NCBI RefSeq assembly: GCF_000738675.1
Contig: NZ_JPUX01000001.1
Span: forward strand, 1,612,001-1,676,000
Length of the DNA: 64,000 nt
Direction: 5' to 3'
DNA from: Serratia nematodiphila DZ0503SBS1
GTDB taxonomy: Bacteria > Pseudomonadota > Gammaproteobacteria > Enterobacterales > Enterobacteriaceae
Below are positions 383 to 29,417 of this stretch, one piece after another. Numbering within the stretch: position 1 is the first letter of the stretch; every line of letters begins with the position of its first letter. A program made the position numbers and the translations under genes. The notes under the pieces were generated by a model that searched no databases, had not been told where the DNA came from, and saw only the letters and a list, made by a program, of their open reading frames with translations.

Positions 383-2154
383 CAGTAAAACTCCAAAATG
401 TTCGGGCTGCTGTGGCCGCTGCCTGCGGTCAGCGGTTCGTTTAAGAGGGCATGCATGATTGCCCACGCGACATCGGCGTGGCTGGCTTCTTCGCTGCGGC
501 TGGCGGTGTAGGTTGAACGCGCGCCGCTGGCGGTCATGGTTTTGCGGATCGCCATAAAGGCGGCGGTGATGTCGGTGTGGCTGGTGTCGTATTCCAGACA
601 GCCGCGCCCGATGGTGTCTTTTGCCTTCAGCACCATGGCGGTTTTGATTTCCGGCGTGTATTTGATTTCTCGGGCGGCCGGGAAGAACTCGCGCACCAGC
701 TGGAAAACACCTTGGCCGACGGTGGTCGCATCGATGCCGATGTACTCCACGCAATATTTTTCGGTCAGGTCTTTAATCTTCTGGGCCTGAGCGGCAAAGT
801 TCATGCCCTGCCACTGGTGGCGCTCGAGCACGCGGAACTTGCCCCCGGCCACCATTGGTGGCGCGATCACCGCGCACCCGGCGCTGTCGCCGCCGTTGGC
901 TTCCGATGGGTCGTAGCCGATCCACACCGGGCGATAGCCGAACGGCCGCACGGCGTAAGGGTTGAAGTCTTCCCATTCTTCCAGCGTATCGACCATGCAG
1001 CCTTGCAGCTCGGCGAACGGGAATACCGACGCGGTATCGTCCACAAATTCACACATCAGCAGGTTCTGATACTCTGCCGGGCTGTATTCGAGCGACAGCT
1101 GATCGAGGTCAAACAGGTTACAACCGCCGGTCAGCGCATCCTCAACCGTGACAATCTGGCGCCATTGCCCATCACCGCACAGCACGCCTTTTGACAGGTG
1201 GCTGTGGCTGAGGTCGAGCTGAACGTGATCGGCTTTACTGCGGCGGCCTTTGTTGAACAGTTCCCCCGACCAGAACGGATAAGCGGAGTGCGCCAGACTC
1301 GACGGCGTGGAAAAGTAGGTGGTGCGCCACCGCTTGTGCAGCGACATCCCGCTGGCGACTTTGCGCAGCTCCTGAAACTTCGGTATCCAGAAATACTCAT
1401 CCAGATACAGATTGCCGGTGTAGCTCTGCGCGGTGCGCACGTTGGTGCCGAGGAACATCAGGCGGGCGCCATTCGGCAGCACCATCGGATCGCCTTTCAG
1501 GTCAACCTCGACCAGCCGCGCAAAATCAATGATGTAATTGCGGAATACATGCGCCTGCGCCTTACTGGCCGACAAGAAAATCTGATTGCGGCCGGTGGTC
1601 AGCGCATCGAGTAATGCTTCGCGGGCAAAGAAGAACGTGGCGCCGATCTGGCGCGATTTCAGGATGTTGCGGATACGGTGTTGCAGCCCGGCGCGATACC
1701 ATCCCATCTGATACTCGAAGGTGGTTTCTGTGAAGATGCTTTGCAGCTTCTCCACGGCGGCCTCGCTGAACACGTTGCGCTCGGCGGGCTTGCGCTCGCC
1801 TTTGTTGCGGTTGGCGACGTTCGGGTTTAAATCCGCCTCGTTGCCGGTCGCCGAATAGCGATTGACCCGCGCCAGCCGTTCAATCTGGCGGCCTAACAGG
1901 TCAATTTCTTTGAAGTCTTTCCCCTCCTTGACGTCTTTCATGATGAGCTGAATCAACCGTGCTTCCATGCTTTGCTCAACGCGGGAAATGGGCGCGATGT
2001 CGTCCCATTTATCGCGCAGCTTCCAGCTCTGCACGGTCGGCCCCTTGAGGTTCAGCGTTTCCGCAATTTGGCGCACAGAGAAGCCCTGCCAGTAGAGCAA
2101 GGCAGCTTGGCGGCGCGGATCGCTGATGATGGTTGTTGCCGGTGTCGTATTCAT
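382..2154 (-). CDS. P: Phage terminase large (ATPase) subunit, gpP
   Basis: A 590-residue protein, the same length as P2 gpP, which cuts and packages DNA into the prohead. An N-terminal helix-turn-helix domain (about 8-60, with YWQGFSVRQIAETL) is followed by the ATPase domain, with the nucleotide-binding segment KSRQIGAT at about 166-173 and a Walker B-like LYLDE at about 249-253. The C-terminal nuclease region starts near GYDPSEANGGDSAG. The start MNTTPATT was chosen to match P2; the frame stays open upstream for 42 more codons. It is divergent from the gpO-derived frame, as in P2. No damage is seen, although its partner small terminase (gpM) is deleted. Confidence 0.95.
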   Translation of the reverse strand: MNTTPATTIISDPRRQAALLYWQGFSVRQIAETLNLKGPTVQSWKLRDKWDDIAPISRVEQSMEARLIQLIMKDVKEGKDFKEIDLLGRQIERLARVNRYSATGNEADLNPNVANRNKGERKPAERNVFSEAAVEKLQSIFTETTFEYQMGWYRAGLQHRIRNILKSRQIGATFFFAREALLDALTTGRNQIFLSASKAQAHVFRNYIIDFARLVEVDLKGDPMVLPNGARLMFLGTNVRTAQSYTGNLYLDEYFWIPKFQELRKVASGMSLHKRWRTTYFSTPSSLAHSAYPFWSGELFNKGRRSKADHVQLDLSHSHLSKGVLCGDGQWRQIVTVEDALTGGCNLFDLDQLSLEYSPAEYQNLLMCEFVDDTASVFPFAELQGCMVDTLEEWEDFNPYAVRPFGYRPVWIGYDPSEANGGDSAGCAVIAPPMVAGGKFRVLERHQWQGMNFAAQAQKIKDLTEKYCVEYIGIDATTVGQGVFQLVREFFPAAREIKYTPEIKTAMVLKAKDTIGRGCLEYDTSHTDITAAFMAIRKTMTASGARSTYTASRSEEASHADVAWAIMHALLNEPLTAGSGHSSPNILEFY

Positions 2155-2296
2155 GACGCCAAGGCTACGAAAGCGCCGGGCGACTCGCATTAAGCCCTTG
2201 TTGTGCCTCAGATCTTCCAACCGCAACGCGTTGAGACGCGGCGCCTTTCCCCCGAAACTAGCCCCGAACCCAATCACCACAACCGGAGCCGTTTAC
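2155..2296. promoter_or_regulatory. Divergent late promoter region between P and O
   Basis: In P2 this gap carries the back-to-back late promoters for P-Q and O-N-M-L, activated by Ogr. Here it is 142 bases. The nearest thing to an activator site is GTTG (2200-2203) and CAAC (2218-2221) with 14 bases between them, which is not an exact TGT-N12-ACA site. Assignment rests mainly on position. Confidence 0.4.
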
Positions 2297-3205
2297 ATGG
2301 CAAAGAAAGTTACTAAGTTTTTCCGCATCGGCGTTGAAGGCGACACCGTTGACGGCCGCGAGATCGGCGCTGCGGATATTCAGCAGATGGCTGCGACCTA
2401 CAGCCCGAAGGTGTACGGCGCCCGCATCAACATGGAGCACATCAAGGGGATTTTGCCGGATGGCTATTTTCGCCGTTACGGCGGCGTGGTTGAGCTGAAG
2501 GCCGAGAAAATCGACGAGCCGGACGAACCGCTGTTGCACGGCAAATGGGCGCTGTATGCCAGTCTGGCCCCGACCGCCGATCTGGTGTCGATGGTCGGCG
2601 CAGGCCAAAAGGTGTTTACCTCGATGGAGACCCGCATCAACATCGTGCCGGTGCCGGAGATGAAAGGCGAAAAAATCGGGCTGGATGTCAGCGGCACGAT
2701 TGCCAGCACCACCGACACCGCCGGCGGCGATGAGCGCGAAACGGCCGACTTCGCCACGCTGGATGCAGAGGGCTATTTCTGCCAACAGGTGAACTACGAT
2801 TTCCACATCCGTTACAACACTCTCGACCTGTGGGCGCGTTATCAGGACTTCCAGACCCGCTTACGCGATGCGATTGTGAAACGACAGGCGCTCGACCGCA
2901 TCATGATCGGCTTTAACGGTACGCACCGCGCCAAAACCTCCAACCGCGTTAAATTCCCGCTGCTGCAGGACATTGCGCCGGGCTGGTTGCAGAAGTACCG
3001 CGAGAACGCGCCGGGCCGTGTGCTGGATAAAATCGTGGGTATCAGCGAGCGCCAAGCTGCCGTTACCGGCGGGCGCATCGATTTACCGTCGGGCTGTGTT
3101 TATACGGGTATGTCCGGCTCAAACTACAACCCCTCAATCTGGGGCGCTTATTCAGCGGTTCAGGTGCTGATTAACGGCACATGGGCAACAATTGGAACGG
3201 TGTAA
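2297..3205 (+). pseudogene. Three-part chimera: gpO N-terminus / gpN middle / tail-fibre C-terminus
   Basis: The open frame encodes 302 residues with no internal stop. Residues 1 to about 110 match the start of P2 capsid scaffold gpO (MAKKVTKFFRIGVEGDT, ILPDGYFRRYG, KVFTSME). From about 112 (TRINIVPV, EMKGEKIG, TLDLWARYQDFQ, GWLQKYRENAP) to about 245 it matches the inside of major capsid gpN. The last 55 residues (DLPSGCVYTGM, SIWGAYSAVQ) look like a tail-fibre C-terminus, which fits the fibre-assembly gene that follows after one base. Two in-frame deletions explain this: a small one between O and N near 2627, and a large one near 3030-3045 that removed the head-completion, lysis and baseplate genes. 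A capsid or scaffold function is very unlikely. Assignment of the fibre part is less certain than that of the O and N parts. Confidence 0.85.
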
Positions 3206-3206
3206 A

Positions 3207-3731
3207 ATGCAACATATTAAGAATTTGAAGAGATACACGCCGGAAGAATTATTCCTCGGCGAGAACGTGATTTATCTTCAGGATGAAAACGGTATTGACT
3301 GGTACGCCGTGCAAAAATTGTTTTCGCCGGACACCGTAAAATTGGCTTATGACGAAAGCGGCATTATCTGCGCGATTAACAGTGATGTGTCGATGCTGTG
3401 GCCGATTGGCTTATCGGTTATTGAGCTGAGCCCGACGAAACTGCCAAAGTGCTGCCTGGCTAATGGTGAGTGGGTGTTTGACGGTAAGAAGGTGAGCCGG
3501 CGTATCTATTCCGCCGAAGAAATGATGGCGAGGGCTGAAACCAGAAAAAATGAATTGCTGGCGAGCGCGGGTAAGGCTGTTGCGCCGCTACAGGATGCAG
3601 TCGATTTAGGGATGGCGATGGAGGAGGAAATCGTGCAGCTCAAGCTCTGGAAAACTTACCGGGTGCAGCTGAGCCGCATCAATCCGCAGAATGCGCCGGA
3701 TATCGATTGGCCGGTTGCGCCCAGCGTCTAA
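3207..3731 (+). CDS. Tail fibre assembly protein (Tfa / gpG-like)
   Basis: The 174-residue product has the usual Tfa layout: an N-terminal part that reads out residue/host contact (ENVIYLQDENGIDWY), a middle that includes EWVFDGKKVSRR, and a C-terminal helical part ending RINPQNAPDIDWPVAP, typical of P2-like assembly chaperones that fold or join the tail fibre tip. The ATG at 3207 lies one base after the stop of the chimera and is preferred over an in-frame ATG 15 bases earlier that would lie inside that frame. A strong terminator follows. Its fibre partner survives only as a C-terminal fragment. Confidence 0.85.
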   Translation: MQHIKNLKRYTPEELFLGENVIYLQDENGIDWYAVQKLFSPDTVKLAYDESGIICAINSDVSMLWPIGLSVIELSPTKLPKCCLANGEWVFDGKKVSRRIYSAEEMMARAETRKNELLASAGKAVAPLQDAVDLGMAMEEEIVQLKLWKTYRVQLSRINPQNAPDIDWPVAPSV

Positions 3732-3732
3732 T

Positions 3733-3765
3733 AAAAAGCCCGCAGCGATGCGGGGCTTTTATTTT
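3733..3765 (+). terminator. Rho-independent terminator after the fibre assembly gene
   Basis: The stem AAAAGCCCGCA / TGCGGGGCTTTT has one bulge and is followed by TTTTATTTT. A-runs on the left side allow function in both directions. Its core is repeated at 4575-4595. Confidence 0.85.
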
Positions 3766-3784
3766 GGAAGTTAACGGAAAATGG

Positions 3785-3883
3785 TCATGGCACCATAGTT
3801 GTTACAAAATTCGGCGCACCAATTAGGATGACGAACAGTAGTATGCTTCCTATGGTAATTGCTGTTGCGAATTCATTCTTCAT
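3785..3883 (-). CDS. Small single-span membrane protein (32 residues)
   Basis: The frame begins ATG AAG AAT at 3883 and ends TGA at 3785. It encodes MKNEFATAIT followed by a hydrophobic span (about residues 5-27, including IGSILLFVILIGAP) and a short polar tail. An AGGGGG Shine-Dalgarno sequence lies 10 bases before the start. It begins 17 bases after the stop of the YmgB-like gene on the same strand, so the two are probably co-transcribed. No family is recognised. A regulator peptide, toxin-like peptide or superinfection-exclusion protein are all possible. Length, hydrophobicity and ribosome-binding site support translation, but nothing proves it. Confidence 0.6.
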   Translation of the reverse strand: MKNEFATAITIGSILLFVILIGAPNFVTTMVP

Positions 3884-3900
3884 AGTGGCATTTCCCCCTG

Positions 3901-4119
3901 TTATTTTGAAAGCGTACCTACAAACTCCAATGTGTCGCGGTATAACTGGAATTCATCGTTATCGGATGCTTTTTCCATTTCTGCGACTATTTGAGAAAGA
4001 ATATTATCGGTGTTGACTATTTTTTTGCGAACAAGAAGACCTATGACGCATTTTCCCAGAACCATGCTCACTTTTTCTAAGTTCTGCGTTTCACCATCGG
4101 TAAGGTAATGAATACTCAT
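3901..4119 (-). CDS. YmgB/AriR-like biofilm / Rcs connector protein
   Basis: The 72-residue helical protein matches the core of E. coli YmgB (AriR). Corresponding positions read LEKVSMVLGKCV here and LEEESAVLGQAV there; VNTDNILSQI here and VNNKNIILSL there; then an E--SD segment and R-TLE-V. YmgB-type proteins are small dimeric connectors that affect biofilm, acid resistance and RcsB output; in E. coli they lie beside prophage e14. The start at 4119 has TTGGAGAG seven bases ahead and is preferred over in-frame ATGs at 4185 and 4191. Placement between the fibre assembly gene and FI marks it as lysogenic cargo. The family call is from recalled sequence, so moderately sure. Confidence 0.68.
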   Translation of the reverse strand: MSIHYLTDGETQNLEKVSMVLGKCVIGLLVRKKIVNTDNILSQIVAEMEKASDNDEFQLYRDTLEFVGTLSK

Positions 4120-4210
4120 AAGCTCTCCAATCAATGATTTTTCGGATGTAGCCGTTAATCCAGATGTCGTCTTTAGAGCAGGCATTCCCATCCTTAGTTT
4201 GGTTGAAAGA

Positions 4211-4226
4211 GCCCACCGAAGCGGGC
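4211..4226 (-). other. Stable UUCG hairpin in the leader of the YmgB-like gene
   Basis: On the minus strand, GCCCGC-TTCG-GTGGGC forms a six-pair stem (one G-U) capped by a C(UUCG)G tetraloop about 90 bases upstream of the 4119 start. It is followed by TCTTTC, so weak termination or leader stabilisation are both possible. Upstream, TATAAC near 4267 with TTATTC 16 bases further is a plausible promoter. Confidence 0.4.
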
Positions 4227-4366
4227 AAAGATTCGTCTCTGGTGTATCAAGCGTTACAAAGGTTGTTATAAGGGATTGCGAACCCTGAATAACGCTTTTA
4301 GGTTAGGAATGTTCCGAAATCATGGCAAGTAATTACGAACGGTAAGGAACGAATTTAGGATAAATG

Positions 4367-4394
4367 CTAAAAAAAATGCCCCACGGCGGGGCGA
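4367..4394 (-). terminator. Leftward Rho-independent terminator
   Basis: Read on the minus strand, GCCCC-GCCGT-GGGGC is followed by A and eight T residues. There is no T-run in the plus direction. It lies just after the stop of the 31-residue candidate gene (4437-4532) and would insulate the YmgB-like unit from leftward transcription. Confidence 0.8.
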
Positions 4395-4436
4395 AATTTG
4401 GTGATGATAGCTACATGAACTATTTGCATGTGACGA

Positions 4437-4532
4437 TTAGAGGCGTGTGTCGTCTATTGGCGACACTATATTACTTTGGAGGGGGGAACAAGCAAAAAGT
4501 GCTGAAGTGAGAAATCTTAGGAAAAGTGCCAT
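4437..4532 (-). CDS. Candidate tiny lipoprotein (31 residues)
   Basis: The frame runs from ATG at 4532 to TAA at 4437. The product starts MALFLRFLTSALFACSPLQS: one arginine, a short hydrophobic run and a lipobox-like LFAC, then a short polar tail. That resembles phage Rz1 or bacteriocin-release lipoproteins but is shorter. A leftward terminator follows 43 bases later. The start codon is fused to the 3' arm of an 8-bp hairpin (4532-4553), and no good Shine-Dalgarno is seen, so translation would be weak or controlled. The frame may be chance. Confidence 0.3.
   Translation of the reverse strand: MALFLRFLTSALFACSPLQSNIVSPIDDTRL
4448..4465. promoter_or_regulatory. Candidate Ogr/Delta late-activator site (TGT-N12-ACA)
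   Basis: TGT (4448-4450) and ACA (4463-4465) are exactly 12 bases apart, inside a larger dyad GTGTCG/CGACAC (4447-4466). P2-family activators bind TGT-N12-ACA about 55 bases before late start sites. Rightward, this would place the start near 4511, ahead of FI. Leftward, it would be near 4401 with TATCAT in place, but directly into a terminator. Rightward control of the F operon is the simpler reading. Confidence 0.5.
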
Positions 4533-4553
4533 TCGAAAGTCCGTGCTTTCGAA
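4532..4553. repeat. Perfect 8-bp inverted repeat at a start codon
   Basis: TTCGAAAG and CTTTCGAA enclose a six-base loop. On the minus strand the last arm runs straight into the ATG of the 31-residue candidate gene. Confidence 0.6.
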
Positions 4554-4570
4554 CTGATGCCCTTGGCGCC

Positions 4571-4598
4571 ATGAAAAAAGCCCGCAGCGATGCGGGCT
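4571..4598 (-). terminator. Second copy of the GCCCGC terminator, stronger leftward
   Basis: GCCCGC-agcgat-GCGGGC is followed on the minus strand by TTTTTT. On the plus strand the run is only TTTGTGTTT. It shares 21 consecutive bases with the terminator at 3733, in the same orientation, 842 bases away, so the two frame the cargo segment. Confidence 0.7.
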
Positions 4599-4684
4599 TT
4601 GTGTTTGCGGCTTTCCCTGATGTTGCCGCGCTTGACCTCCAGACCTTACCCTGCCCGGCTCTCAGGCGTCCAATTGATTGCGTA

Positions 4685-4847: not shown

Positions 4848-6017
4848 ATGGGCGATTATCATCACGGCGTGCGCGTCGTCGAAATCAACGACGGCACCCG
4901 CGTTATTTCCACCGTATCGACGGCAATCGTCGGCATGGTCTGCACGGCGGAGGATGCCGACGCGTCGGTTTTCCCGCTCGATACCCCGGTACTTATCACC
5001 GATGTGCTGGCCGCCTCCGGCAAGGCCGGTAAAAAAGGCACGCTGGCGGCGTCGCTGCGGGCGATCGCCGAACAGGCGAAGCCGGTCACGGTGGTTGTTC
5101 GCGTTGCCACCGGCAAAGACGCTGCGGAAACCACCTCCAACATCATCGGCGGCGCGAACGCTGAAGGCCGTTACACCGGCATGAAAGCGCTGTTATCTGC
5201 ACAGGCTGAGCTGGGCGTTAAGCCGCGCATCCTCGGCGTGCCGGGGCTGGATAATCAGGAGGTCGCGACGGCGCTGGCCGGGATTTGCCAGCAGTTGCGC
5301 GCGTTCGGCTATATCAGTGCCTACGGCTGCAAAACCGTGCAAGAGGCGATTAAGTACCGCGACAATTTCAGCCAGCGCGAGCTGATGCTGATCTGGCCGG
5401 ATTTTGTCAGCTGGAACACCACCGCCAACCAGAGCGACATCGCCTATGCCACCGCCCGCGCGCTGGGCCTGCGTGCCAAAATTGACACGGAAACCGGCTG
5501 GCATAAGACGCTTTCAAACGTCGGCGTTAACGGCGTGACCGGCATCACCGCCAGCGTGTTCTGGGATTTGCAGGCGCCCGGCACCGATGCCGACCTGTTA
5601 AACCAAGCGTGCGTCACCACGTTGATCCGCAAAGACGGCTTTAAATTCTGGGGTTCCCGCACCTGTTCCGATGATCCGTTGTTCCTGTTCGAGAACTACA
5701 CCCGCACCGCGCAGGTGCTGGCCGACACCATGGCCGAGGCGCACTTATGGGCCGTTGACCGCCCGGTAACGCCTACGCTGGTGCGCGACATGATTGACGG
5801 CATCAACGCGAAATTCCGCGAGCTGAAATCCGCAGGGCTGATTATCGACGGTACTTGCTGGTACGACGAAAGCGCCAACACGAAAGAAACCCTGAAGGCG
5901 GGCAAGCTGTTTATCGATTACGACTACACGCCGGTGCCACCGCTCGAAGATTTAACCCTGCGCCAGCGCATCACCGATCGCTATCTGGCGACGTTTGCGG
6001 CATCCGTGAACCGCTAA
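4848..6017 (+). CDS. FI: Tail sheath protein gpFI
   Basis: The 389-residue contractile sheath subunit is close to P2 gpFI along its whole length (GDYHHGVRVVEINDGTRV at the start, SNVGVNGVTGITASVFWDLQ in the middle, YDYTPVPPLEDLTLRQRITD at the end). It assembles around the tube and contracts to drive it into the host. The start at 4848 matches P2 and has CGGAG nine bases ahead; the frame is open further upstream without similarity. It is first in the F-E-T-U-D tail operon. It is intact, although baseplate genes needed for assembly are missing here. Confidence 0.96.
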   Translation: MGDYHHGVRVVEINDGTRVISTVSTAIVGMVCTAEDADASVFPLDTPVLITDVLAASGKAGKKGTLAASLRAIAEQAKPVTVVVRVATGKDAAETTSNIIGGANAEGRYTGMKALLSAQAELGVKPRILGVPGLDNQEVATALAGICQQLRAFGYISAYGCKTVQEAIKYRDNFSQRELMLIWPDFVSWNTTANQSDIAYATARALGLRAKIDTETGWHKTLSNVGVNGVTGITASVFWDLQAPGTDADLLNQACVTTLIRKDGFKFWGSRTCSDDPLFLFENYTRTAQVLADTMAEAHLWAVDRPVTPTLVRDMIDGINAKFRELKSAGLIIDGTCWYDESANTKETLKAGKLFIDYDYTPVPPLEDLTLRQRITDRYLATFAASVNR

Positions 6018-29107: not shown

Positions 29108-29257
29108 GGCGTATCCCTTTCAGAGTTTAATAGCTGCCGCTTAGTGTAATGCGAGTTGCCCGCCGGATAAACCATTAAGCGCATTCGCCGTACGTGGCCG
29201 AATTGTGCTTTTGCCAATTGCCCTGTCTACCCATTAGCGTTATAGTCATCTTGCTTA

Positions 29258-29412
29258 TTCTCAGGGCGGGGTGAAAGTCCCCACCGGCGGTAAATCACCT
29301 TCTACGGTGAAAGCCCGCGAGCGCTCAGCCAGCCTGTAAAGGCCGGTTAGAGGTCAGCAGATCCGGTGTAATTCCGGGGCCGACGGTTATAGTCCGGATG
29401 GGAGAGAGTAAC
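29258..29412 (+). ncRNA. FMN riboswitch (RFN element) of ribB
   Basis: All RFN signature blocks are present in order: TCAGGGCGGGGTGAAAGTCC, CCACCGGCGGTAAAT, AGCCCGCGAGCG, GGTCAGCAGATCCGGTG, GGGGCCGACGGTTATAG and TCCGGATGGGAGAGAG. The aptamer ends 110 bases before ribB. FMN binding is expected to lower ribB expression. Confidence 0.96.
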
Positions 29413-29417
29413 GGTAT

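Follow-up and report, generated by a model that had tools for sequence, protein, structure and literature searches.

The segment that separates the tail fibre assembly gene from the tail sheath gene of a P2-like prophage of Serratia nematodiphila, analysed here within a 64,000-nucleotide stretch of DNA (the window), is in our best reading, which we hold to be rather probable, an intact lysogenic-conversion cassette ("moron") that would join a YmgB protein to a mobile and rewired relative of a locus for envelope control in the host. The homology, order and site of the cassette are well supported, and we infer all of its functional steps from sequence. Read leftward, the cassette is composed of RNA1, RNA2, a YmgB-like gene and the pep32 gene, in this order, and the whole unit spans about 840 bp. 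The features, by window position, are the following.

2126 to 3205, plus strand: decayed neighbour, a single open frame fusing O, N and tail-fibre (H) pieces (Pfam/PHROGs)
3207 to 3731, plus strand: tail fibre assembly gene G, flank (Pfam and PHROGs)
3736 to 3761, both strands: left boundary terminator, after G and after pep32 (scan, stem 3739-3754)
3785 to 3883, minus strand: pep32, a 32-aa hydrophobic peptide (homolog at the host locus, 48% identical)
3901 to 4119, minus strand: 72-aa YmgB/AriR-family protein (profile and fold)
4203 to 4307, minus strand: RNA2 element (extent of model R2), with local and terminator-like hairpins (model)
4300 to 4328, minus strand: possible RNA2 promoter TTGCCA-N17-TAACCT (alignment read by eye; same in L080 at TAACCT)
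4370 to 4470, minus strand: RNA1 element (extent of model R1), with a strong terminator at its end (scan, stem 4392-4378; model)
4463 to 4491, minus strand: possible RNA1 promoter TTGTTC-N17-TAGTGT (phage and host sequences read by eye)
4532 to 4553, no strand assigned: inverted repeat TTCGAAAG-N6-CTTTCGAA, a possible operator, preceding RNA1
4576 to 4602, no strand assigned: right boundary terminator-like repeat, near-identical to the 3736-3761 copy
4848 to 6017, plus strand: tail sheath gene FI, flank (Pfam and PHROGs)

The first-pass annotation had reported a YmgB-like gene followed by a small peptide at the fun(Z) site, and this observation is confirmed. The two RNA elements, which it had overlooked and which are invisible in a plain gene list, are the larger finding. 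Its interpretation holds for the protein family, the site and the pairing, but neither for an intact phage nor for the pair as the whole unit: protein and peptide are indeed there, but RNA1 and RNA2 also belong to the cassette, and the series RNA1-RNA2-peptide has a chromosomal counterpart devoid of a YmgB gene. The changes in Rcs output, biofilm or acid resistance that it envisaged are extrapolated from E. coli YmgB and would be predictions for the cassette. The fear that the segment was a decayed fragment of a larger gene did not come true, because it is kept whole in other phages.

The cassette is enclosed by two near-identical terminator-like repeats AAAAAGCCCGCAGCGATGCGGG (3736-3761 and 4576-4602), and a single copy of a AAAAAGCCCGCAGCGATGCGGG-type repeat is present in all nine empty sites examined. 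The repeat pair suggests that the cassette may be gained or lost through homologous recombination at the repeat. Not every element of this layout was returned by the automatic scans: the terminator scan listed 3736-3761, but neither the right boundary repeat (4576-4602) nor the terminator-like hairpin of RNA2, and the consensus promoter scan listed neither the RNA1 nor the RNA2 promoter candidate.

In the window, the succession of a G-like gene (plus strand), the cassette (minus strand) and an FI-like gene (plus strand) is the P2 fun(Z) arrangement, with the same position and strand: in the phage P2 annotation, fun(Z) lies on the minus strand, with G on one side and FI on the other. The Z/fun site proposed earlier is therefore the right one, the cassette being placed leftward between G and FI as fun(Z) is in P2. 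Like P2 fun(Z)-site cargo, the cassette is present or absent as a block; it differs from it by the lack of any Fun match seen and by its content, a pair of RNA elements plus two tiny genes, of which most have host counterparts.

This site makes it necessary to weigh the possibility that the cassette is anti-phage cargo guarding the lysogen, for instance with a membrane peptide that would block DNA entry and a YmgB-like regulator. P2 fun(Z) is annotated as blocking the growth of T5, and the second defence-enriched locus described in E. coli P2-like prophages contains fun (Vassallo et al., PMC9519451); the P2 section of Rousset et al. (PMC9122126) deals with the gpA-gpQ locus. The presence or absence of the cassette in close relatives, detailed below, also fits such a role. 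However, none of the three proteins submitted to PADLOC had a match at E 10, and most parts of the cassette have a chromosomal, non-phage counterpart. We regard anti-phage cargo as unlikely.

The element carried by the window is a deletion remnant and not an intact phage, so that the earlier wording, which spoke of "the phage", does not apply to it. The frame at 2126-3205, in which O, N and H are fused, is a deletion scar that stayed in frame, and the segment running from inside N to inside the tail fibre gene is missing. The replication gene is also short, as it encodes a 307-aa piece corresponding to positions 26-338 of an 852-position replication-protein profile. The prophage nevertheless retains integrase, repressor, portal, terminase, G, FI, FII, tape measure, U and D, and among the IMG/VR contigs that carry the cassette there are some of 31-38 kb. 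The gene losses around the cassette could suggest that it is itself a functionless leftover of a decayed prophage. This is extremely unlikely, since its frames are intact, its genes bear the mark of purifying selection and its RNA stretches are conserved across phages.

The distribution of the cassette was assessed by two IMG/VR scans. The first one, with the 72-aa protein as the query, gave 15 loci; the second one, with an alignment, gave 18, adding three divergent contigs (L051, L109 and L080) to the same 15. In 17/17 loci (the 15 first IMG/VR loci, the window and the related Serratia genome G003), the YmgB protein is followed by the peptide and the pair is flanked by G and FI, in line with the pairing with a hydrophobic peptide noticed at first. 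The survey of P2-like prophages that had been called for thus finds the gene pair at the fun site in 15/15 first IMG/VR loci, in G003 and in the three divergent contigs. No convincing relative was found in the phage and plasmid records.

A scan with FI returned 396 matches, the best 80 of which were kept. Among these best 80 FI loci, 13 hold the pair, ten being contigs of the first scan and the remaining ones L051, L109 and L080, while 11 have no detectable G or lie on too short a contig. When only the 24 of the best 80 loci with at least 97% FI identity are considered, some of which are near-duplicates, 12 are filled, with a G-FI distance of 1106-1118 bp, and 12 are empty, with a distance of 277-346 bp. 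The cassette is thus present or absent as one block among close relatives.

The 72-aa protein scores 22.8 bits against the Pfam YmgB profile, just above the cut-off of 22.3, and a 96-aa form of it scores 22.0 bits, below this cut-off. The structure model of the 72-aa protein superposes on 2oxl at 0.9 Å, which corresponds to the YmgB fold. By profile and modelled fold, the protein is thus a member of the YmgB/AriR family, as had been proposed: the profile search of 3901-4119 gave a match above the curated cut-off, and the fold agrees. It falls short of the NCBIfam YcgZ equivalog (17 bits, for a cut-off of 80). Family and fold are shared with the E. coli ycgZ-ymgA-ymgB-ymgC region (BluR/BluF pathway), but the neighbours differ: ycgZ, ymgA and ymgC are not found next to the cassette gene, which is flanked by RNA2 and pep32, and this context does not define the family. 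A phage-associated transfer of the E. coli ycgZ-ymgABC region has been suggested by Tschowri et al. (2012; PMC3509220).

The 72-aa gene displays dN/dS values of 0.12-0.30 (window against 13 phage loci; values for the 11 pairs in which both kinds of change occur and dS is finite); only synonymous changes separate L024 from the window, and dS is saturated for L080. For the peptide gene, the window differs from seven loci by 11-12 synonymous and 2 nonsynonymous changes, from five close loci by 0 synonymous and 1-2 nonsynonymous changes, and from L080 by about 18 of each. These patterns place both genes under purifying selection, and it is because of them, across 13 phage loci, that the YmgB-like and peptide frames are taken as real genes. 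Compared with the window, the YmgB protein is 54-56% identical in L051 and L109 and 60% identical in L080, and pep32 is 94% and 53% identical, respectively. The YmgB gene and the peptide gene overlap in L051 and L109.

Relatives of the 72-aa protein also occur elsewhere. A 49%-identical one is encoded outside a phage, at L041/L006 (G009:C1:109341-109550), among frames read as transposase-like and LysR-like and without RNA1 or RNA2 matches. In G000, two other matches to the YmgB profile are found, one of them over the cut-off.

Conservation in the 450 nt upstream of the YmgB gene is roughly equal to that of the genes themselves. Models R1 and R2 match 20/20 filled loci, 10 of which served to build them, and 0/12 empty loci; the G009 locus L041 is left unmatched. 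When single-strand folding is compared with that of shuffled sequences in three phages, RNA1 does little better than the shuffles (z -0.9, -1.9 and -1.6), and RNA2 gives z -2.6, -1.0 and -2.8. The RNA1 hairpin is invariant over 10 phage sequences, and its covariation is uninformative because it never varies. Over 15 phage and host sequences, the local hairpin of RNA2 is paired in 98.6% of cells; one of its pairs is U-A in 8 and C-G in 7 sequences, possibly through a single event, and two of five measures do not exceed shuffles. The terminator-like hairpin of RNA2 lies about 85 nt before the YmgB start. RNA1 and RNA2 are probably transcribed as small RNAs, although RNA2 may alternatively be the leader of a ymgB-pep mRNA.

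To look beyond phages, 30 Serratia genomes were scanned with R1, R2 and the peptide alignment. R1 matches 25/30 genomes at E 0.1, the weakest matches being doubtful, and R2 matches 14/30, 12 with E < 1e-11 and two weakly. The peptide alignment has matches with E < 1e-11 in the same 12 genomes as the strong R2 matches. A R1 match in L200 looks spurious. In 12/12 of these genomes, the chromosomal locus is arranged in the order RNA1, RNA2, 31-aa hydrophobic peptide and perM-like gene, with a tightly kept spacing: measured from the peptide, the beginning of RNA1 is 344-347 nt upstream and that of RNA2 185-188 nt upstream, and the perM-like gene starts 318-330 nt past the first base of the peptide. 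One example is L163:4239-4680 (G000:C1:2333238-2333676), whose peptide is 48% identical to that of the window. Both the phage cassette and the host locus are present in G000 and G003. In L166 and L169, RNA1 precedes a different gene, read as DJ-1/PfpI-like, without RNA2 or peptide.

When identity is computed over the 12 host loci by blocks of 25 columns, RNA1 reaches 93-100%, RNA2 97-100% and the RNA2 terminator block 90%. Outside these elements, identity is 80-92% upstream, 82-90% from RNA2 to the peptide gene, 79-87% immediately past the peptide and 88-99% closer to the perM-like gene. Judged by these matches and by their shared order, RNA1, RNA2 and the peptide are homologous between the phage cassette and the Serratia chromosomal locus. 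No YmgB gene was found at the host RNA1-RNA2-peptide locus, and in G000 the YmgB profile has its two other matches away from it. The YmgB-like gene is hence the extra of the phage version, inserted between RNA2 and the peptide. Because all parts but this protein have a chromosomal counterpart, the phage apparently supplies a host regulatory locus in a version of its own.

This comparison bears on another reading, in which the YmgB-like protein would be the effector, a connector raising Rcs output, the upstream elements being only its leader and terminators. The family and fold of the protein are in favour of it, as E. coli YmgB activates Rcs (PMC3509220), and so is RNA2, which directly precedes the YmgB gene. 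Yet a host locus unites RNA1, RNA2 and the peptide in the absence of the YmgB gene, and no part of the cassette changes faster than the YmgB protein in L051 and L109 (54-56% identity, against 94% for the peptide). We hold this reading to be rather improbable.

The phage and host copies of RNA1 are preceded by different sequences. In 11/18 chromosomal RNA1 loci scanned (L166, L169, L170, L193-L199 and L201, all outside the S. marcescens-type group), a block TGAGGATATTCTGATA, whose first base is 61 nt upstream of where the RNA1 model begins, is invariant, while its neighbours vary. This block agrees with the RcsAB box, given as TaAGaatatTCcta in PMC4325325, at 10/14 positions including all five capitals. 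Such a 10/14 score alone is reached by 5-12% of shuffles, and together with the five capitals by 44-68 of 5000 shuffles (three of the TGAGGATATTCTGATA upstreams), for a block that was picked after seeing the sequences. The five S. marcescens-type loci scanned have 9-10/14 RcsAB positions on the other strand, as in shuffles. No RcsAB-like box was found in the phage copies of six loci, whose best score is 9/14, as in shuffles. Instead of this box, all phage copies except L080 contain the inverted repeat TTCGAAAG-N6-CTTTCGAA, which host loci lack. These observations hint at an Rcs-type control of RNA1 in some species, from which the phage copy may be exempt.

A candidate target can be proposed for host RNA1. 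The small RNA MicA acts on the ompA leader. Host RNA1 has GUUAUCAUC, complementary to the ompA leader, in common with MicA (RF00078), but the covariance model of the latter does not match RNA1, either in the window or at the host locus L163, and the sole RF00078 match in the genome lies elsewhere than the RNA1 locus. Host RNA1 contains CGUUAUCAUCC, whose 11-nt complement GGATGATAACG occurs 4 times in the 5.2-Mb genome: in RNA1 itself, in the ompA leader at -20 to -10, and at two other sites, which have no ATG-started ORF of at least 60 aa over them or starting within 80 nt. Among the 3 non-self occurrences, ompA is thus the only gene-start site, and the match covers its ribosome-binding region. 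Furthermore, a 16-nt pattern, GGATGATAACGAGGCG, has one zero-mismatch match in the genome, at ompA. A complementary run as long as the 11 nt of host RNA1 is found in 0/47 background leaders. The duplex energy of the host RNA1 arm on ompA is not exceptional, 7/47 background leaders being as low. This match is the test of one prior guess and not the outcome of a blind screen, because the guess came from the resemblance to MicA.

Phage RNA1 does not keep this 11-nt complement. What it retains is UAUCAUC, a 7-nt part of the ompA complement, along with the GCCUC loop in the majority of phages, but a 7-nt run is not above background, as 8-10/47 leaders have an equally long one. The complement of the invariant stretch of phage RNA1 (14 nt, one mismatch) has no gene-leader match in its own genome beyond itself.

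The peptide raises the last alternative, a type I toxin-antitoxin-like system in which pep32 would be a membrane toxin and RNA1 or RNA2 its antisense, stabilising the prophage. A hydrophobic stretch is indeed present in five peptides of the pep32 kind, with a Kyte-Doolittle mean of 2.4-2.6 over 19 residues, and a 9-nt run of RNA1 is complementary to the peptide start region in 7/12 host loci, a length reached by 6-12 of 300 shuffles. However, the run falls to 6-7 nt, as in shuffles, in the other 5/12 host loci and in 10/10 phage loci, and duplex energies are unexceptional (for the best of all the pairings tried, 16 of 200 shuffles were as low). We consider such a system highly unlikely.

Coming back to the reading as a lysogenic-conversion cassette, its action could be pictured as follows. 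Homologous recombination, within the repeated terminator and the flanking genes, would carry the block from phage to phage. Host RNA1 might repress ompA translation in the fashion of MicA, and the phage RNA1-RNA2 copy, with its different upstream region, could add to, compete with or redirect this host control. The YmgB-like protein and the peptide might act on an envelope signalling protein, Rcs being the first candidate. As a net effect, the envelope of the lysogen would be retuned without dependence on the signals of the host itself. OmpA is a receptor used by phages. One further proposal, speculative and also rather improbable, is superinfection exclusion by a borrowed small-RNA circuit instead of a defence enzyme: the prophage would set the outer-membrane protein and capsule state through a rewired copy of a host circuit, in which a MicA-like small RNA repressing outer-membrane proteins, a second RNA and a membrane peptide would be freed from host promoter control and joined by a YmgB connector, and would thereby exclude the phages that use these surfaces.

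At the second P2 locus, cargo tends to be interpreted as defence genes; here most of the cargo has a host chromosomal counterpart. Compared with the Serratia RNA1-RNA2-pep31 locus, the cassette has homologous parts in the same order, with the addition of the YmgB gene and another sequence upstream of RNA1. The Pas RNAs of E. coli are likewise small RNAs carried by prophages, but their abstract describes no copy of a host RNA-RNA-peptide locus (PMC13192938). In the literature searched, no paper turned up that deals with the YmgB-peptide pair, with a YmgB protein from Serratia or with small RNAs ahead of perM. If confirmed, the cassette would offer an exchangeable unit of about 840 bp, with natural filled and empty siblings, for testing how the regulation of the host envelope is reset by a prophage. 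Attention is also drawn to a small-RNA locus of Serratia with a candidate ompA-type target, a description of which was not found in the literature searched.

Several other features were noted in the window and in related prophages. A rybB small RNA gene lies about 8 kb from the cassette in two related prophage contigs (L028:2102-2180 and L037:2098-2177), and these prophages may be integrated beside it; unlike them, the element of the window is adjoined by a tRNA-Met gene. At L161:14326-15597, the interval between the replication gene and the portal gene, which is the other P2 hotspot, encodes a 423-aa protein matching phrog_6841 (function unknown) with E 8.5e-11. Finally, an FMN riboswitch is present at 29253-29413 of the window.
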